Below, piece after piece: positions 33,837-62,003 of a DNA stretch of 64,000 nt. Under the pieces are notes generated by a model, which was not told the origin of the DNA, made no database searches, and saw only the letters and a program-made list of their open reading frames with translations. The stretch comes from Halorussus sp. MSC15.2. GTDB lineage: Archaea > Halobacteriota > Halobacteria > Halobacteriales > Haladaptataceae. The stretch lies in the NCBI RefSeq assembly GCF_010747475.1, contig NZ_VSLZ01000005.1:62001-126000 (forward strand). The letters run 5' to 3'. Position numbers and translations under genes: made by a program. Each line of letters starts with the position of its first letter. The first letter of the stretch is position 1.

Positions 33837-33846
33837 TTTTATATAA
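33837..33846 (+). promoter_or_regulatory. TATA box for the lipoprotein-subtilase unit
   Basis: TTTTATATAA centred 27 nt before GTG 33869; strong core promoter with leaderless spacing, supporting the GTG as start. Confidence 0.65.
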
Positions 33847-33868: not shown

Positions 33869-34402
33869 GTGACTGATACGCCCGGTGAGACACGTCGCGA
33901 GCGAGGCGACCGTTCGTGGCGATTGACCAGTATCGTAGCGGCGTTGTTGCTACTAACTGCCGGGTGTACTGCGGGTCCGTCCGCGAACCCCTCGGATACG
34001 ACTCCGTCAACCGTGACCTCGGCGACCGCGACGACGACCCCAGACGGACCGCCGACGGACGACGGCGAGAACGCGACGAAGAAACATCCCTCCCTCGATT
34101 CCCGCCTCGTCAGGCTCCTGAACGCGACCAACAGGAGCGCGTACGCGGCGCGTAACGGCCTGACGTTCGGGAACGGTAGCGTCCTCGTCGTCGTCGAACT
34201 CCGTCAGAATCGGACGCTACCTGCCGGGTTCGCCGCCGACGTGCGAACGCGCCACGGCCGCCTCGTTCAGGCCAGCGTCCCCGCTTCGACGCTCCGCTCG
34301 CTCGCCGAGCACACGAACGTGAGCTACGTCCGCCCGCCCCGCCAGCCAGTGACCGAAGCCCCTCCTCAGGAGACCCCCGGAAATGACACGACCCACTCGT
34401 AG
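33869..34402 (+). CDS. Lipoprotein resembling the propeptide of the adjacent subtilase
   Basis: 177 residues from a GTG start at the predicted transcription start. Signal with lipobox SIVAALLLLTAGC (Cys33), Thr/Ser/Pro-rich linker to about residue 75, then a domain ending VLVVVELRQNR ... RHGRLVQASVPASTLRSLAEHTNVSYVRPPRQPV. This aligns with the subtilase N-terminal domain FVTVVLEAES ... RYGDLVRARLPAPAVGTVANASAIQFVRTPRRPE (shared LV-A-P-A, VR, PR-P spacing). In subtilases such domains are inhibitors and folding chaperones. Here a membrane-anchored stand-alone copy overlaps the protease gene by 20 bp, so it may hold or restrain the protease (inference). Confidence 0.72.
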   Translation: MTDTPGETRRERGDRSWRLTSIVAALLLLTAGCTAGPSANPSDTTPSTVTSATATTTPDGPPTDDGENATKKHPSLDSRLVRLLNATNRSAYAARNGLTFGNGSVLVVVELRQNRTLPAGFAADVRTRHGRLVQASVPASTLRSLAEHTNVSYVRPPRQPVTEAPPQETPGNDTTHS

Positions 34403-37400
34403 CTACGCGGCAGTCGCCGTGGTACTGTTGTTGATTACCGCGACGTTCGCGCCCGTCGTGACCGTCAGCGCGTTACCGTCGGTCGGTCCCGGTCCGCCGG
34501 TGACCCACGGCGTGGCCGCGTCGACGGTCGGTAACGACGTGACGACTACCCCGACGGAGACTACTTCGACCACGACGACGGAGACCACCACGGCCACCGG
34601 CGGGGACGGAACGACGACCGACGTCACGGAGACGACCACTTCGACCGCAACGTCCGGTGGAGACGGCCTGCCCGGCATGGAGGACTCGCGGCGGTCGAAC
34701 GAGTCGAAATCGAACCGCAAGGTGTCTTCCCGAGTCGCCGATATCGTGGCGAACGCCGGGTCGGGTTCGACGGACTCCGACATGGTGACCCAGAGTCGGG
34801 ACGGTACGACCTTCGTCACCGTCGTCCTCGAAGCCGAGTCGGGTCGCGGCGACGACGCTGCCGACGCAGTCCGCCGAATCGGCGGCGGCGTCGAACAGCG
34901 TTACGGCGACCTCGTCAGGGCGCGACTTCCGGCCCCGGCGGTCGGGACGGTCGCGAACGCCTCGGCGATTCAGTTCGTCCGCACGCCGCGGCGCCCGGAG
35001 GTGACCGACCTGACCAGCGACGGGGGACTGGGCGACATGAACGTCGGAGGCGTCCACCAGAAAGGATTCAGTGGGGAGAACACCACGGTGGCGGTCGTCG
35101 ACCTCGGATTCAATTCACAGAACTCCGAGATAGCCGACAACGTGGTGAAGACGATGGACACGTACGACGGGGACTTTCAGGACACCTCCAACGCGCACGG
35201 GACCGCCGTCGCCGAACTCATCGTGGATACGGCACCGAACGTCTCGCTCGTCCTCATCGACGTCTCGACATCGATGGGCATCATGGAAGCCGCCGACTAC
35301 GCGGACAACCACTCCATCGACGCGGTGTCGATGTCGCTCGGCTTCCGTAGCGGTCCCTTCGACGGGAGTTCGACGCTCGACCAGCGCATCGCCACCTCGG
35401 TAGACCGCGGGACCCCGTGGTTCATCTCGGCGGGGAACGCCGGCGGCGGGAAGCACCTCGACACCACGTGGAGCGACAGTGACGGCGACGGATTCCTGAA
35501 CTTCGCCGGGGGAGACGAGACGCTGAACGTCACGGCTCCGTGTACCGGGTGTAGCGTTAGCGTCTCGGTCAACTGGGACGACTACCCGGACAGCGACCAA
35601 GACTACGACGTGATACTGTACGACGACAACGGGAACGTCCTCGACAAGAGTCGGACCTCGCAAACCGGGAGCCAACCCCCCGAAGAGTTCGTCTCCGGGT
35701 CCTCGTCGGCGGGGCCGCTACACGTCGCAGTGAAAGCGGAGAGCGCCAGCGGTAACGCTAGGTTCCAGATATTCAGCAACGACGGCACGAGCCTCGAGTA
35801 CAGTTCGAGCGCCACGAGTCTGACCCGCCCGGCGACCGAGGAGAAGGCGGTCACGGTCGGCGCGATGTACTACTACGACGACAACCTCGAAACCTTCTCG
35901 TCGCGCGGTCCCACGGTGGACGACCGACGAGGCGTGGACATCACCGCACCCGACGGCGTCCAGACGACGGTCTACGACCAGTTCTTCGGCACGTCGGCGG
36001 CGACCCCCTACACCGCGGGAGTGGCGGCGCTCGTCGAAGGCGCGACGGAGAGAGACCTCGGCCCGTCGGAGATAGAGAACGCGCTCACGAGTTCGGCGGT
36101 CGAACTGCAGGGCGACGAACCTAACCCGCGGACTGGGTACGGACTGGTGAACGCCGAGGCGGCGGTCGAGGCGACCACCGAACCCGAGGCGTCCGCCCCC
36201 GACAAGTTCGACTTCGGCGCGTTCGACACCGGGAGCGTCGAGTCCGACAACGTGACCGTCGTGAATACCGGGATAGCACCGCTGAACCTGACCGACGTGT
36301 CGCTGTCGGCGTCGAGCGCGTTCACCGTGACTGGCGGCGGGTCTGGCGGCGTCGTTCGACCCGGCGAGTCCCACAACGTCACCGTGGAGTTCGCGCCGAG
36401 TTCGTACGGCGAGAAGTCGGCGACGCTCAGCGTCTCCCACAACGACACCGACGCGTCCCCGACGGAAGTGAACGTCACGGGGACCGGTCTCACGCCGGTC
36501 GCCACCGTCGGCAAGACCAGTGTCGGCTACGGCGACGTCGGAGTCCTCGACGAGAGTCGGTCCGCCGACGTGGTCCTCACGAACGACGGCAACGTTCCGC
36601 TGAACGTGACGACTCTGCAGGTGTCCGGAACCAACGCGAGCGAGTTCCGAATCAGCGACGGCGACGCGACGCCCGTCGTCGCTCCGGGCGAGGGCCACGC
36701 GGTGACGGTCTCGTTCGACCCCGAGACGATGGGGGAGAAGTCCGCCACGCTCTCGTTCGAACACAACGACTCGGACGATTCGCCGACAACCGTCTCGCTC
36801 GCCGGTACGGGGGTGGACGCGAGCGGACCCGTGCTCGCGAGCGCCGCGGCCACCGACGCCACGGACGGTAACGGCGTCATCGCCGACGGTGATACGGTTT
36901 CGATTGGGGTGAACGCGTCCGACGTACTCGGCGACGTGAGTTCGGTGACCGCGAACGGGTCGGCGTTCGGAGTCGGGAACGTCTCCCTGACTGACGGCGA
37001 CGGAGACGGGCGGTACGACGCGACGGTCACCGTGAACGCGTCGGAGGGTACCACAGACGGCGAGTACGTCGTCGAAGTAGCCGCGAGCGACGGCGTCGGC
37101 AACTGGAACGTGACCGCGGCAGGGAGTCTCACGCTCGACACGACGGCCCCCGAACTGACGATAGGAGACCCGGCGAACGGGAGCGCGACCAACGCCAGCG
37201 CGATATCGCTCGTCGGAACGGTCGGCGACGACCACTCGAAGGTCGCCGGAGTCGAGTTCGACGCGAACGGGACGTGGCACGACGCCGCGGTGGACGCGGA
37301 CGGAACGTGGGAGAACACCACCGAAACCCTCGGGAGCGAAGGAACCTACGTCGTCCGCGTTCGAGCGACCGACGTCGCCGGGAACCTCGCTTCGGAGAAC

Positions 37401-39380
37401 GTGACCGTGTTCGTGGACCGAACGAACCCGACGCTCGCCGACGCGTCGCTCGGCCGGACCGGTCAGATTCGGCCGGAGGAGAGCGTCTCGGTGGCGGCGA
37501 ACGCGTCCGACTCGTTCACCGGAGTCGCCGAAGTCGTCACGGGCGACGGTGCGCTCTCGGCGTCGAACGCCGCAGGGAACGAGTGGAACGGGAGCGTCGA
37601 AGCGAACGCGAGTCTCGGGAACCACTCGGTCACCGTCACGGTCCGCGACGCCGCAGGGAACACCGACGAGAAGACGCTCCCGTACGAGGTCGGCGTCCGG
37701 GCGAATCTGACCCCGAGCGACGCCGCGAACGACAGCACGCTCGTCGCGCGCCCGGAACGGGGTGCCGTCGAGAACGTCACCATCGACGCGACCGGCGCGT
37801 CGGACAACGAGTCGCTGATAGCCGGGGCCGCGAGTACCAACCCCACCGGCGTCGCCGCGCCCAACGCGACCGGTCTCTCGTTCCCGCAGGTCGAGACCTC
37901 CGTCGCCAACGCGAACATCTCGAACGCCTCGTTCGCGGTGACGGTGCCGCGGTCCCGCGTCGAGTCGCAGTTCGCGCTGCTGGACACGGTGACGTTCTGG
38001 GTCCACGAGGACGGGACGTGGACCCGGACGAACGGGACGCTGGTCGAACAGAACGAGACGAGTCTCACGTACGCGGTGGCGACGCGTCACTTCTCGACGT
38101 TCGCGGTCACCGCGGATGCGGACTCAACGAAGCCGACGATTTCGTCGGTCGGACCCGCGAGCGATAGCACCGCCGAGAGTCACAACGTGACCGTGACCGC
38201 CGATTACGCAGACGACTACGCGGGCGTGGACCCCGCGAACGTCACCCTCTCGGTGGACGGCGAGGCGGCGACGAGCGAGGCGACCATCGACGCCGACGGA
38301 CTGGCGTACGACGCGAACCTCTCTGACGGGAGCCACAACGTGACGCTCGGCGTGCCGGACCGAAACGGCAACGTCCGGACGCGGAGTTGGTCGTTCGAGG
38401 TGGACACCTCCAACGATGGCGGCGGTGGGGGCGGTGGTGGTGGCGGCGGCGGTGGCGGCGACCCGCCGGAACCGATGGTGCAGGTGAAACTGACCGACGT
38501 GACCGCGGACAGCGTCCGGGCCAAGGTCGTCAGCGCCCGGGCGGGAGCGGCCGGGGAGGTGTCGATAGACGGCGGCATCGGCGCGGGCGCGGTGACCGTG
38601 CGCTCGGTGTCCGTCCGACCGAAGAGCCGAGAAGCGACGTCGCGATTCTTCGTGGACGCCAGCGTCACCGAGACCCCGCCAGACGGTGCGAGCGCGCCGG
38701 ACGTCGCCGCCCTCGGCTACCTCCGCGTGGGGACGACGTACATCTCCGACTCGGCGCTGTCGGCGGTCGGCGTCGAGTTCGCGGTGCCCGCGGACGCCAC
38801 CGCCGCGCCCGAGAACGTCGCGCTTTACCGACTGTCGGACGGCAGTTGGACGCGGGTCGAGACGTCGGTCGCTGGCGAGCGCGGTGGGCGCTACGTCCTC
38901 GACGCGAGCGCGTCCGGAACCGGCCTGTTCGCGGTCGGCGTCGCGTCCGCTGAGACCGCCGTCGCCGACGCGTCCGTGGACGCCGACAGCGTGGCATCCG
39001 GCGAGAGCGTGACCGTCACGGCCACCGTGGAGAACGCGGGGTCCGGGACGGGGACGACGACGGCGGAGTTGACGGTCGACGGGGAGACGGTTCGGACGAA
39101 GCAGGTATCGGTGTCCGCTGGCGGTTCCGAGACCGTCACGTTCGAGGTGACGCTCGACTCGGCGGGCGACCACGAACTGGCGGTCAACGGCGTCCCGGCC
39201 GGGTCGGTTTCGGTCGCCGGAGCCACGACCGAAGCGGGACTGAACGGGTCTGACGAGCGCGAGAGCCGGGCGGACGGAATCGGCAGCGAAGGCGCTATCC
39301 CCGGATTCGGTCCGGTCACTGCGCTCGTCGCGCTGCTCGCCGGACTGCTGGCGGGTCGGTGGGACGGACGTTCCTCGTAG
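34383..39380 (+). CDS. Giant secreted subtilisin-like protease with PGF-CTERM anchor
   Basis: 1665 residues. Sec signal (1-31), Thr-rich linker, propeptide-like domain (about 140-205), S8 catalytic domain with Asp240 (VAVVDLGF), His272 (AHGTAVAEL), oxyanion Asn352 (SAGNAGGG) and Ser538 (GTSAATP). Then two choice-of-anchor-D/Hydin-like repeats (about 605-820), several Ig-like adhesion repeats, a run of 14 glycines at 38418-38459, a PGF-pre-PGF type domain, a CARDB-like domain and a C-terminal PGF-CTERM signal (PGFGPVTALVALLAGLLAG then Arg), processed by archaeosortase in known cases. Surface-anchored protease. Co-transcribed with the preceding lipoprotein. Confidence 0.9.
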   Translation: MTRPTRSYAAVAVVLLLITATFAPVVTVSALPSVGPGPPVTHGVAASTVGNDVTTTPTETTSTTTTETTTATGGDGTTTDVTETTTSTATSGGDGLPGMEDSRRSNESKSNRKVSSRVADIVANAGSGSTDSDMVTQSRDGTTFVTVVLEAESGRGDDAADAVRRIGGGVEQRYGDLVRARLPAPAVGTVANASAIQFVRTPRRPEVTDLTSDGGLGDMNVGGVHQKGFSGENTTVAVVDLGFNSQNSEIADNVVKTMDTYDGDFQDTSNAHGTAVAELIVDTAPNVSLVLIDVSTSMGIMEAADYADNHSIDAVSMSLGFRSGPFDGSSTLDQRIATSVDRGTPWFISAGNAGGGKHLDTTWSDSDGDGFLNFAGGDETLNVTAPCTGCSVSVSVNWDDYPDSDQDYDVILYDDNGNVLDKSRTSQTGSQPPEEFVSGSSSAGPLHVAVKAESASGNARFQIFSNDGTSLEYSSSATSLTRPATEEKAVTVGAMYYYDDNLETFSSRGPTVDDRRGVDITAPDGVQTTVYDQFFGTSAATPYTAGVAALVEGATERDLGPSEIENALTSSAVELQGDEPNPRTGYGLVNAEAAVEATTEPEASAPDKFDFGAFDTGSVESDNVTVVNTGIAPLNLTDVSLSASSAFTVTGGGSGGVVRPGESHNVTVEFAPSSYGEKSATLSVSHNDTDASPTEVNVTGTGLTPVATVGKTSVGYGDVGVLDESRSADVVLTNDGNVPLNVTTLQVSGTNASEFRISDGDATPVVAPGEGHAVTVSFDPETMGEKSATLSFEHNDSDDSPTTVSLAGTGVDASGPVLASAAATDATDGNGVIADGDTVSIGVNASDVLGDVSSVTANGSAFGVGNVSLTDGDGDGRYDATVTVNASEGTTDGEYVVEVAASDGVGNWNVTAAGSLTLDTTAPELTIGDPANGSATNASAISLVGTVGDDHSKVAGVEFDANGTWHDAAVDADGTWENTTETLGSEGTYVVRVRATDVAGNLASENVTVFVDRTNPTLADASLGRTGQIRPEESVSVAANASDSFTGVAEVVTGDGALSASNAAGNEWNGSVEANASLGNHSVTVTVRDAAGNTDEKTLPYEVGVRANLTPSDAANDSTLVARPERGAVENVTIDATGASDNESLIAGAASTNPTGVAAPNATGLSFPQVETSVANANISNASFAVTVPRSRVESQFALLDTVTFWVHEDGTWTRTNGTLVEQNETSLTYAVATRHFSTFAVTADADSTKPTISSVGPASDSTAESHNVTVTADYADDYAGVDPANVTLSVDGEAATSEATIDADGLAYDANLSDGSHNVTLGVPDRNGNVRTRSWSFEVDTSNDGGGGGGGGGGGGGGDPPEPMVQVKLTDVTADSVRAKVVSARAGAAGEVSIDGGIGAGAVTVRSVSVRPKSREATSRFFVDASVTETPPDGASAPDVAALGYLRVGTTYISDSALSAVGVEFAVPADATAAPENVALYRLSDGSWTRVETSVAGERGGRYVLDASASGTGLFAVGVASAETAVADASVDADSVASGESVTVTATVENAGSGTGTTTAELTVDGETVRTKQVSVSAGGSETVTFEVTLDSAGDHELAVNGVPAGSVSVAGATTEAGLNGSDERESRADGIGSEGAIPGFGPVTALVALLAGLLAGRWDGRSS
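38418..38459 (+). repeat. Poly-glycine tract in the subtilase
   Basis: Fourteen consecutive Gly codons of mixed GGC/GGT/GGG type between the Ig-like region and the PGF-pre-PGF domain. A flexible hinge; mixed codons reduce replication slippage. Confidence 0.8.
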
Positions 39381-39432: not shown

Positions 39433-40130
39433 ATGTGCGGCAGAACCTCTCTGTTCGCTCCGCCGGACCTCGTCGCCGACCGCTTCGACGCCGAACCGGT
39501 CCGACCGCTGGAACCCCGATACAACGTCGCGCCCGGACAGCGACATCCCGTCGTCCGCAACGACGACACCGACGCCATCCGGTTCCCGACGTGGGGGTTA
39601 GTCCCCGAGTGGGCCGACGGGTCGCCGTCGTCGGGCCACATCACGCCCGCGCCGGGACGCTGGCCGAGAAGCCGAGTTTCCGCGAGGCGTTCGCCGAGCG
39701 CCGGTGTCTCGTCCTCGCCGACGGGTTCTACGACTGGAAGGAGACCCCGACCGGCAAGCAACCGTACCGCATCGAGCGCGCCGACCGTGACCCGTTCGCT
39801 TTCGCTGGCCTGTGGGAACCTCGGGGCGACGGGGGCGGAACCGACGCCACGTTCACTATCGTCACGACCGAACCGAACTCCGTGGTCGAACCGATACACC
39901 ACCGGATGCCGGTTATCCTGAACCGCGCGGAGGAACGTCGGTGGCTACGGGGCGGTGACGAGGGGACCGATACCGAGGAACTCGCGGACCTGCTCGACCC
40001 CTACCCCGCTTCGGAGATGCGCGCCTACCCGGTCTCGTCGGCGGTCAACGACCTGGACAACGACGACCCGACGGTAATCGAGGAAGTCGCCGCCGAGGAG
40101 GACGTGCAGACCGGACTCGACGAGTTCTGA
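39433..40130 (+). pseudogene. SRAP (YedK/HMCES-type) abasic-site peptidase, broken by one missing base
   Basis: SRAP proteins crosslink to abasic sites in single-stranded DNA through the N-terminal Cys2. ATG 39433 is chosen since it yields MCGRTSLFAPPDLVADRF with Cys2. YNVAPGQRHPVVR and WGLVPEWAD follow, then the frame breaks at about 39643. One extra base turns ITPAP into an INARAGTLAEKPSFREAF reading and continues LVLADGFYDWKE ... PNSVVEPIHHRMPVIL (His motif). Repaired length 232 residues. The Glu of the usual ARAET motif reads Gly, which may be another error or true divergence. Confidence 0.8.
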
Positions 40131-60386: not shown

Positions 60387-62003
60387 ATGGTCGGACTCAA
60401 TCCGCTCTTCGACGCTATCGGCGCCCTCGGCTTCGTCGGCGCGGTGGTGGTCGGATGGTTGAACTACCGCGACAGCGAGGTCGAATCGGCGTTCTGGATG
60501 ACGTTCACCTTCGCCTCGGTGTTGGGAACGACGTGGACGGTGAGCCTCATGTTGGAGAAGGCGGGCATCTACGAAGAGGTGACCAACTTGGCGACTGGTC
60601 CCCTCATGACCGCAACTGTCGCCGTGTTCGCAATCGGCGGTACCGCGACGCTCGCCGTCGTCGAGGACATGAAGGACGTCGTCGAGGAAGCGAAACAGGA
60701 ACGTCAGAGCGCCGAAAAAGCCAAGCAGAAGGCGGAGGAACAGCGCGAGCAGGCCGAGGAGTCCAAACAACAGGCAGAAGAGGCCCGACAGGAGGCGAAA
60801 CGACGCGAGGAGGAACTCGAATCGTTCACCCGAGCGCTCGAACAGAAGGCCGAGGAGTTCGGCGGTATCATGGAGGACGCGGCGGCGGGCGACCTCACCC
60901 AGCGCATGGACCCGGAGAGTGAGAGCGAGTCGCTGGAGCGGATAGCGAGACAGTTCAACGAGATGATGACCGAACTCGAACGGACCGTCGGTCGCGTCCA
61001 ACAGTTCGCGGTCGAGGTGTCCGACGCCAGCGACGAGGCGAGCGTCGGCACGCAGGAAGTCGAGAACGCGAGCGAGGAGGTGGCCAAGTCGGTCGAGGAC
61101 ATCTCGGCGGGCGCTGCCGAGCAGTCCGAACACGTCGACGAGGTCACGAACGAGATGAGCACGCTCTCGGCGACCATCGAAGAGGTCGCGGCGTCGGCCG
61201 ACGAAGTCGCGGCGCTGTCCGAGCAAGCCGCCGAGAAGGGTGCCGAGGGTCGGAAACTCTCGGGCGAGGCGATGGACGAGATGGACCGCATCGAGGAGAC
61301 CACCGTCGAGACCGTCGAGACCGTCGACAGACTGGACGAGGAGATGTCTGAAATCGGTGAAATCGTGGGCGTAATCGACGACATCGCCGAGCAGACGAAC
61401 GTACTGGCGCTCAACGCCTCCATCGAGGCCGCTCGTGCGGGCGAGGCCGGCGAAGGGTTCGCGGTCGTCGCCAACGAGGTGAAGGACCTCGCGGAGGAGA
61501 CCCGCGACGCGACCCAAGAGATAAGCGGTCTCATCGACCAGGTGCAGGACTCGACGGCAGCGACGGTCGAAGAGATGCAGGAGATGCGTGAACGAGTCGA
61601 TTCGGGCACGGAGACTATCGACGAGGGACTGGGAGTGCTCGAAGAGGTAGTCGAGGACGTCGAGGAGGCCAACACCGGCATCCAAGAGATTCACGAGGCG
61701 ACCGAGGACCAAGCGACCTCGACCGAGGAGGTCGTCGCGATGACGAGCGAAGTCGCGAGCATAAGCGAGGAGACCTCCGCCGAGGCCGAAACCGTCTCGG
61801 CCGCCGCCGAACAACAGGCGGCGTCCATCAGTCAGGTCACGAGCGAAGTCGAGGCTCTCTCCGAGAAGTCGAACGAACTCCACGCGCTCCTCGGTCGGTT
61901 CGAGGTGTCTACCGACGGAACGGAGGTCTCGCCCGACGCCGCGGAGGGCAGCGAGCGCTCGCTCGCCGCCGACGGTAACGGGTTCGGACGGGCCGACGAA
62001 TGA
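60387..62003 (+). CDS. Halobacterial transducer (methyl-accepting chemotaxis protein)
   Basis: 538 residues. Three short membrane helices within the first 95 residues ([61 protein letters not shown]) with no extracellular sensor domain. Then a long charged coiled coil (about 100-165), a HAMP-like segment [31 protein letters not shown], and the MCP signalling domain with the conserved hairpin tip [43 protein letters not shown]. Glu/Gln pairs for methylation are present. ATG 60387 lies one base after the preceding stop. Confidence 0.92.

Follow-up and report, generated by a model that had tools for sequence, protein, structure and literature searches.

Background

Stand-alone proteins that mimic the propeptide of a subtilase and inhibit the enzyme are described from fungi, yeast, plants, Toxoplasma and Plasmodium, the named examples in the sections of PMC6993865 cited here being Pleurotus peptidase A inhibitor 1, yeast peptidase B inhibitor, Arabidopsis subtilisin propeptide like inhibitor 1 and Toxoplasma MIC5. 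Here we analyse a gene pair of the haloarchaeon Halorussus sp. MSC15.2, in which a small, putatively membrane-tethered protein with a propeptide-like domain is encoded immediately ahead of a large subtilase. The pair lies in a stretch of 64,000 nucleotides (positions 62,001 to 126,000 of contig NZ_VSLZ01000005.1, forward strand), hereafter "the window", which is the whole stretch of DNA that was analysed.

A close eukaryotic counterpart is a secreted stand-alone propeptide-fold protein whose gene, as in the window, lies beside subtilase genes, and which is a potent and selective inhibitor (PMC6993865). Unlike the window protein it is eukaryotic and soluble, has no membrane anchor described in the sections cited, and is not part of an overlapping two-gene operon. 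More generally, the stand-alone inhibitors of MEROPS family I9 resemble the window protein as small propeptide-fold proteins (PMC6993865), but in the same sections they are not archaeal and no lipid or transmembrane tether is described for them, whereas the window family has no Pfam I9 match.

A likeness in gene order is seen in the dentilisin operon prcB-prcA-prtP of Treponema denticola, which also starts with a small lipoprotein gene ahead of a surface subtilase. The first product, PrcB, is a 23-kDa lipoprotein; it binds PrtP, which depends on it (PMC8167434). This operon has three genes, however, and the portions of that paper cited here do not report PrcB as propeptide-like and give no homologues outside oral Treponema; the likeness is a functional analogy, PrcB being set beside the window protein by description only. 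Two further systems come from structures. The Clostridium CspB prodomain remains attached to its enzyme, whose active site it occludes with residues P3-P1, according to the cited part of PMC3567191, but it lies within the same precursor and is not a separate tethered product. The propeptides of Tk-SP and Tk-subtilisin (Thermococcus) are archaeal, like the window protein, and provide the best VIA match (3afg_B) and many further rows; they act in cis, however, in one polypeptide.

A term search of the haloarchaeal membrane-protease review PMC4343526 found the words subtilisin, subtilase, inhibitor and propeptide absent. The cited parts of PMC12893001, on haloarchaeal protease antagonism, contain neither the word "lipoprotein" nor a tethered propeptide partner, and in searches of open-access PubMed Central text, which beyond the papers named here covered listings of matches, we found no description of a tethered archaeal stand-alone propeptide.

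Results

The gene pair consists of an open reading frame (ORF) of 177 amino acids (aa) with a GTG start (33869-34402) and a 1665-aa ORF of a peptidase family S8 subtilase (34383-39380), which share the 20 bp 34383-34402. An earlier note, made from the letters of this DNA, had given both ORFs with their coordinates and the overlap, and these are borne out. The features are as follows.

33837-33846, + strand: TATA-like box TTTATATAAC, read from the sequence; distance to the downstream GTG start about 27 bp
33869-34402, + strand: stand-alone, putatively membrane-tethered propeptide-like protein, 177 aa, GTG start (family profile E-value = 5e-36 in its own genome)
33869-33967, + strand: signal sequence with lipobox LLTAGC and predicted lipidated Cys33 (sequence)
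33968-34075, + strand: Thr/Ser/Pro/Asp-rich flexible linker from the lipid anchor to the domain (translation)
34076-34399, + strand: propeptide-like domain (about 90 residues) and C-terminal tail (residues 1-108 of the AF2 model, P1-equivalent near model residue 94)
34383-39380, + strand: S8 subtilase, 1665 aa, whose ATG falls inside the upstream gene near its 3' end (20 bp shared)
34383-34472, + strand: predicted Sec-type signal peptide of the subtilase (sequence)
34704-34997, + strand: N-terminal prodomain of the subtilase itself, with helix alpha-1; homologue of the stand-alone domain (BLASTP, profile-profile comparison, AF2)
35025-36167, + strand: catalytic domain of the subtilase, Asn and Ser being separated by an insert (Pfam, alignment, AF2, fold matches)
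35100-35102, + strand: catalytic Asp240 (alignment)
35196-35198, + strand: catalytic His272 (alignment)
35436-35438, + strand: oxyanion-hole Asn352 (alignment)
35994-35996, + strand: catalytic Ser538, in GTSAATP (alignment)
36198-36812, + strand: two choice-of-anchor-D / ASH-type Ig-like domains (domain-model matches)
39291-39359, + strand: PGF-CTERM-like surface anchor, just under both curated cut-offs

The C-terminal domain of the upstream protein and the prodomain of the subtilase carry the motifs LVQASVPA ... VRPPRQP and LVRARLPA ... VRTPRRP, respectively, and the motif alignment from which the earlier note had started is indeed present. A single BLASTP comparison of the two proteins gives 30% identity over 104 columns (E-value = 2e-7). 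A profile-profile comparison, 17 stand-alone domains against 16 prodomains, gives a probability of 97% (E-value = 1.1e-10, 64 columns). We conclude from sequence that the domain is a real homologue of the propeptide of the neighbouring subtilase, the similarity exceeding chance.

A structural model of the stand-alone domain (AlphaFold2, AF2) was built from nine alignment rows, the window protein and eight named relatives. Its mean predicted local distance difference test score (pLDDT) is 83, and about 90 over residues 10-90; the order of elements is two N-terminal helices, three successive strands, a helix and a strand. This model lacks the helix alpha-1 that usually connects beta-1 and beta-2, whereas the prodomain of the neighbour has it (H57-66). 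The AF2 model of the subtilase is moderate (mean pLDDT 70.6, predicted template modelling score 0.63), and only the secondary structure of its prodomain was used, not the domain placement. In a Foldseek search against PDB each of the top 21 rows is a subtilase propeptide or a pro-subtilase (best E-value 0.0099), the best match being the Clostridium CspB prodomain (4i0w_A). Ranks 1-32 of VIA are of this same kind throughout, the best being 3afg_B (ProN-Tk-SP) with a Z of 8.1 and a root-mean-square deviation of 3.0 over 76 residues. The predicted fold is the one that the earlier note had expected; the differing folds that would have counted against its proposal were not seen.

The Pfam model Inhibitor_I9 gives no match at E-value <= 1 for the window protein or any of the 17 members, and the stand-alone profile, run against the sequences of solved structures, gives three weak unrelated rows and nothing relevant. 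Wherever the domain is present in the order (17 of 17 genomes) it has its own ORF and its own signal and is a separate gene product. The stand-alone family has a predicted subtilase-propeptide fold in a separate gene product, yet it is not filed as I9 by sequence.

The subtilase belongs to family S8 by its match to PF00082 (71.3 bits, cut-off 21.8) and by its subtilase fold matches, and Asp240, His272, Asn352 and Ser538 are all invariant in a seven-row alignment. The earlier note had called its C-terminus PGF-CTERM. A PGFGP motif and a hydrophobic stretch are visible there, but TIGR04126 (22.9 bits, cut-off 24.5) and PF18204 (16.1, cut-off 18.8) both stay below threshold, so the label is borderline. 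The term "lipoprotein" for the upstream product is backed by the predicted signal peptide and the lipobox cysteine (LLTAGC, Cys33), the sequence features of an archaeal lipoprotein. The TATA-like box is likely a leaderless promoter common to both genes, which fits a shared transcript.

A profile built from the 17 stand-alone domains was searched against 392 genomes of the order. Seventeen genomes have one stand-alone copy each (E-value <= 2.1e-30); after a gap, weaker matches start at 2e-8, within ORFs of at least 500 aa. Eleven of the 13 weaker-match loci examined are subtilase prodomains, the match lying N-terminal to the catalytic His motif, and two (L209 and L212) are unrelated ORFs of 708-710 aa. 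The weak genus matches L036-L040, whose translated frames look like antisense readings of other genes, were dropped. The plasmid collection gave no match to the stand-alone family.

In 16 of these 17 genomes the stand-alone gene immediately precedes a subtilase gene of the same orientation; in the 17th (G303), a 779-aa subtilase ORF is divergent, 1.3 kb from it. The adjacency that the earlier note had asked about is thus conserved, a subtilase neighbour being present in 17 of 17, and the family was not found widely without one. By ORF coordinates, the two genes mostly overlap by 1, 4, 8 or 20 bp or are 1 bp apart, with larger gaps of 208 bp (G211), 259 bp (G096) and 581 bp (G208); for G215 and G286 an inferred start of the subtilase was used. 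Chance adjacency was rejected, given 21 S8 matches among an estimated 4,000 or so genes in the genome of the window against 16 of 17 directly upstream.

In a subtilase scan the partner was present at all eight best named haloarchaeal loci (best 8 of 80 loci): those of Halorussus aquaticus, Halorubrum yunnanense, Halobellus inordinatus, Candidatus Halobonum tyrrellensis, Haloarcula pellucida, Haloferax elongans, Halobellus sp. Atlit-31R and Halobellus clavatus. Rows 9 and 10 of the scan, Halogeometricum pallidum (L113, interrupted subtilase frame) and Natronobiforma, lack it. The haloarchaeal set used below (n = 19) comprises the 17 genomes with Halobellus sp. Atlit-31R and Halobellus clavatus; the other named records overlap the 17. 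The word "haloarchaeal" in the earlier note proved too narrow: a search of the phylum (392 genomes) found a stand-alone gene directly 5' of a subtilase in G449, G613 (where the subtilase frame is broken) and G669, all outside the order. It also found a distant stand-alone relative adjoining a subtilase in G664, and others at L258 2798-3448 (G555) and L259 852-1511 (G614), which have a C-terminal membrane segment and come from another archaeal family.

Side observations were made on other subtilases of the genus. A conserved "core" subtilase of the genus adjoins an AAA kinase gene; in the genome of the window it is frameshifted near the N-terminus (L003, 5866-8564 on; G000:C1:78k) with the window pair intact, and in G004 the reverse is seen, the subtilase of the pair being frameshifted and the core copy intact. 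G013 has a stand-alone gene at the core locus (L044 10481-11017), at which the subtilase is unaccompanied in six related genomes; the partner thus appears to be gainable or losable at this locus. The genome of the window also contains four tandem subtilase genes of about 380-400 aa (L004, L006, L010 and L013; G000:C2:785-790 kb).

A membrane anchor is predicted in all 22 stand-alone proteins, as a lipobox-like motif in 18 and a C-terminal transmembrane segment in four. The motif is found in 18 of the 19 haloarchaeal proteins (the CAGC of G013 being counted by eye). The C-terminal hydrophobic segment, with no lipobox, is that of the haloarchaeal G222 and of G449, G613 and G669. Tethering itself seems to be under selection. 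Our best argument that it matters for function is that it is kept by two unrelated anchor types.

The ends of the proteins were compared with those of cleaved propeptides. From the valine of beta-4 to the C-terminus there are exactly 9 residues in six of the 19 haloarchaeal proteins, 8 in one and 10 in one; the remaining ones extend 13-27 residues past this valine, and one 85. Four of the six are Halobellus-like, so that they represent about three lineages. The propeptide of BPN' ends 9 residues past the equivalent valine, and structural alignment puts P1 at the same spot, model residue 88 aligning with residue 63 of 69 in Tk-subtilisin and with 71 of 77 in subtilisin E. Six stand-alone proteins stop exactly where a cleaved propeptide stops, at the P1 position.

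On average, a stand-alone domain also resembles the prodomain of its own neighbour more than the row and column means would predict (tail p = 0.0003 and core p = 0.0003 for 14 pairs), and does so without the group whose subtilases lack a signal peptide (11 pairs; tail p = 0.006, core p = 0.02), in test windows chosen after the tail motif had been seen. The 14-pair set excludes the near-copies G004 and G348, G303 and the two extra Halobellus; the 11-pair set additionally excludes G096, G208 and G211. This own-pair similarity could reflect co-adaptation to one enzyme or repeated gene conversion. In a mirror-tree test (16 pairs, excluding G303 and the two extra Halobellus), the distances among stand-alone domains correlate with those among catalytic domains (rho = 0.71; partial on rpoB 0.70, p = 0.0002). 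Since neither follows rpoB (0.13 and 0.10, respectively), their mutual correlation fits a cassette that travels together.

The earlier note had called the domain a copy of the subtilase propeptide. A propeptide-like domain, putatively tethered and paired with a subtilase, is what we find, but not a copy as to origin: helix alpha-1 is missing, and a grouping of the window domain with its own prodomain, as for a recent duplicate, is rejected (approximately unbiased test, p-AU = 0.0019). For G449 the same grouping is rejected with p-AU = 0.023. In the trees the 19 haloarchaeal stand-alone domains cluster apart from the prodomains of their neighbours; a single clade of all 22 stand-alone domains is compatible with the data (p-AU = 0.39) and not established. 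Because the trees set them apart and own-pair grouping is rejected, the stand-alone domains are, on phylogenetic evidence, an old separate lineage and not a fresh copy. The prodomains of five other haloarchaeal subtilases of 500-563 aa (L202, L206, L208, L213 and L214) fall on the stand-alone side of the tree, a nearness subject to selection bias since these prodomains were picked by the stand-alone profile itself; L202, L206 and L208 have a similar LP-x or VP-x motif.

No conserved third gene is apparent beside the pair. The gene downstream of it in the window (39435-40130) begins MCGRTSLFAPPDLV, a start reminiscent of SRAP/YedK-type proteins.

Discussion

We propose that the upstream product is a membrane-tethered propeptide mimic acting in trans on the neighbouring subtilase, as an inhibitor or gatekeeper, and give this reading a probability of roughly 0.55. 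The mimic precedes the subtilase in gene order, and the two would be made together, the mimic first. After export, the predicted lipid would hold the mimic at the membrane on its flexible linker. The subtilase, exported in turn, would fold with its own prodomain and then shed it, as is usual in the family. The mimic may then bind the mature catalytic domain through its beta-sheet face and insert its C-terminal tail into the cleft in the manner of propeptide residues P4-P1, so that the enzyme would be blocked near the membrane. The enzyme would be active only after escaping or outliving the tethered mimic, and the membrane-proximal proteins of the cell would thereby be protected.

Several observations weigh against this proposal. 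None of the Foldseek E-values is <= 0.001, and no Pfam model, I9 included, matches the domain; for the latter reason, the protein is likely annotated "hypothetical" wherever it is present. The tail of the window protein itself extends 14 residues past the P1 equivalent. The mirror-tree correlation comes from deep groups only: for the 10 secreted pairs that are not near-copies the partial rho is -0.08 (p = 0.67). The distant relatives of G555 and G614 are not beside an S8 gene. Within the genus, close relatives of the subtilase in G002, G005, G008, G010 and G014 and the core copy of G004 have no partner, which suggests that the partner is not always needed. Finally, the neighbouring subtilase has no signal peptide in G096, G208, G211 and G303, so that inhibitor and enzyme are possibly on opposite sides of the membrane there.

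The chief rival is a tethered foldase or dock, the lipoprotein folding the subtilase or holding it at the surface and not switching it off. The operon order and the lipid anchor do resemble prcB-prcA-prtP in the portions cited of PMC8167434, and propeptides can fold their enzyme in trans, as the cited part of PMC3567191 describes for CspB. A second foldase is less needed, however, because the subtilase retains its own full prodomain; the window subtilase has a likely surface anchor of its own; the relatives of the same genus live without the partner; and an ending at P1, as some of the C-termini show it, suggests the active site. We regard a foldase or dock as unlikely, though it deserves to be taken seriously.

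Doubtful, with a clearly lower probability, is a wider form of the inhibitory proposal, a phylum-wide archaeal "leash" in which a stand-alone propeptide on whichever anchor would gate surface subtilases in trans, and which in the signal-less clade would serve as an export ticket of the twin-arginine translocation (Tat) pathway while also inhibiting. The partners of the four signal-less subtilases (L096 of G096, L097 of G211, L098 of G208 and L252 of G303) form one clade (98/96; 100/98 in a second tree). In these genomes, either the enzyme and its partner never meet, or the partner exports the enzyme. The second alternative alone, Tat hitchhiking, in which the folded lipoprotein would bind the subtilase in the cytoplasm and export it via Tat, is proposed for this clade only, and we consider it somewhat less probable still. 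Four of four partners there have a Tat-type lipobox signal, against 5 of the 15 others, all four belonging to one clade; the four subtilases may, however, simply be cytosolic, and the mechanism is inapplicable to the window, where the subtilase has a Sec-type signal and the lipoprotein no standard Tat motif. Least probable, in our judgement, is protection against foreign or kin subtilases, in which the mimic would inhibit the secreted subtilases of other cells and its own neighbour only incidentally: haloarchaea use secreted halolysins in antagonism (PMC12893001, in the parts cited) and the stand-alone cores lie near the prodomains of another haloarchaeal subtilase group, but that nearness is in part the selection noted above, and adjacency in 17 of 17 genomes together with own-pair matching ties the mimic to its neighbour.

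Conclusions

Archaea that have a protein surface layer (S-layer) but lack an outer membrane must withstand their own surface subtilases, in a way that to our knowledge is not settled. A conserved cassette of two genes, one of them for a putatively tethered mimic of the propeptide, offers a concrete and testable answer to this problem of self-protection. If the proposal of a tethered inhibitor or gatekeeper is true, archaea would join the fungi, plants and parasites from which stand-alone propeptide inhibitors are known, and membrane tethering would be a further means, one that confines inhibition to the producer's own surface.

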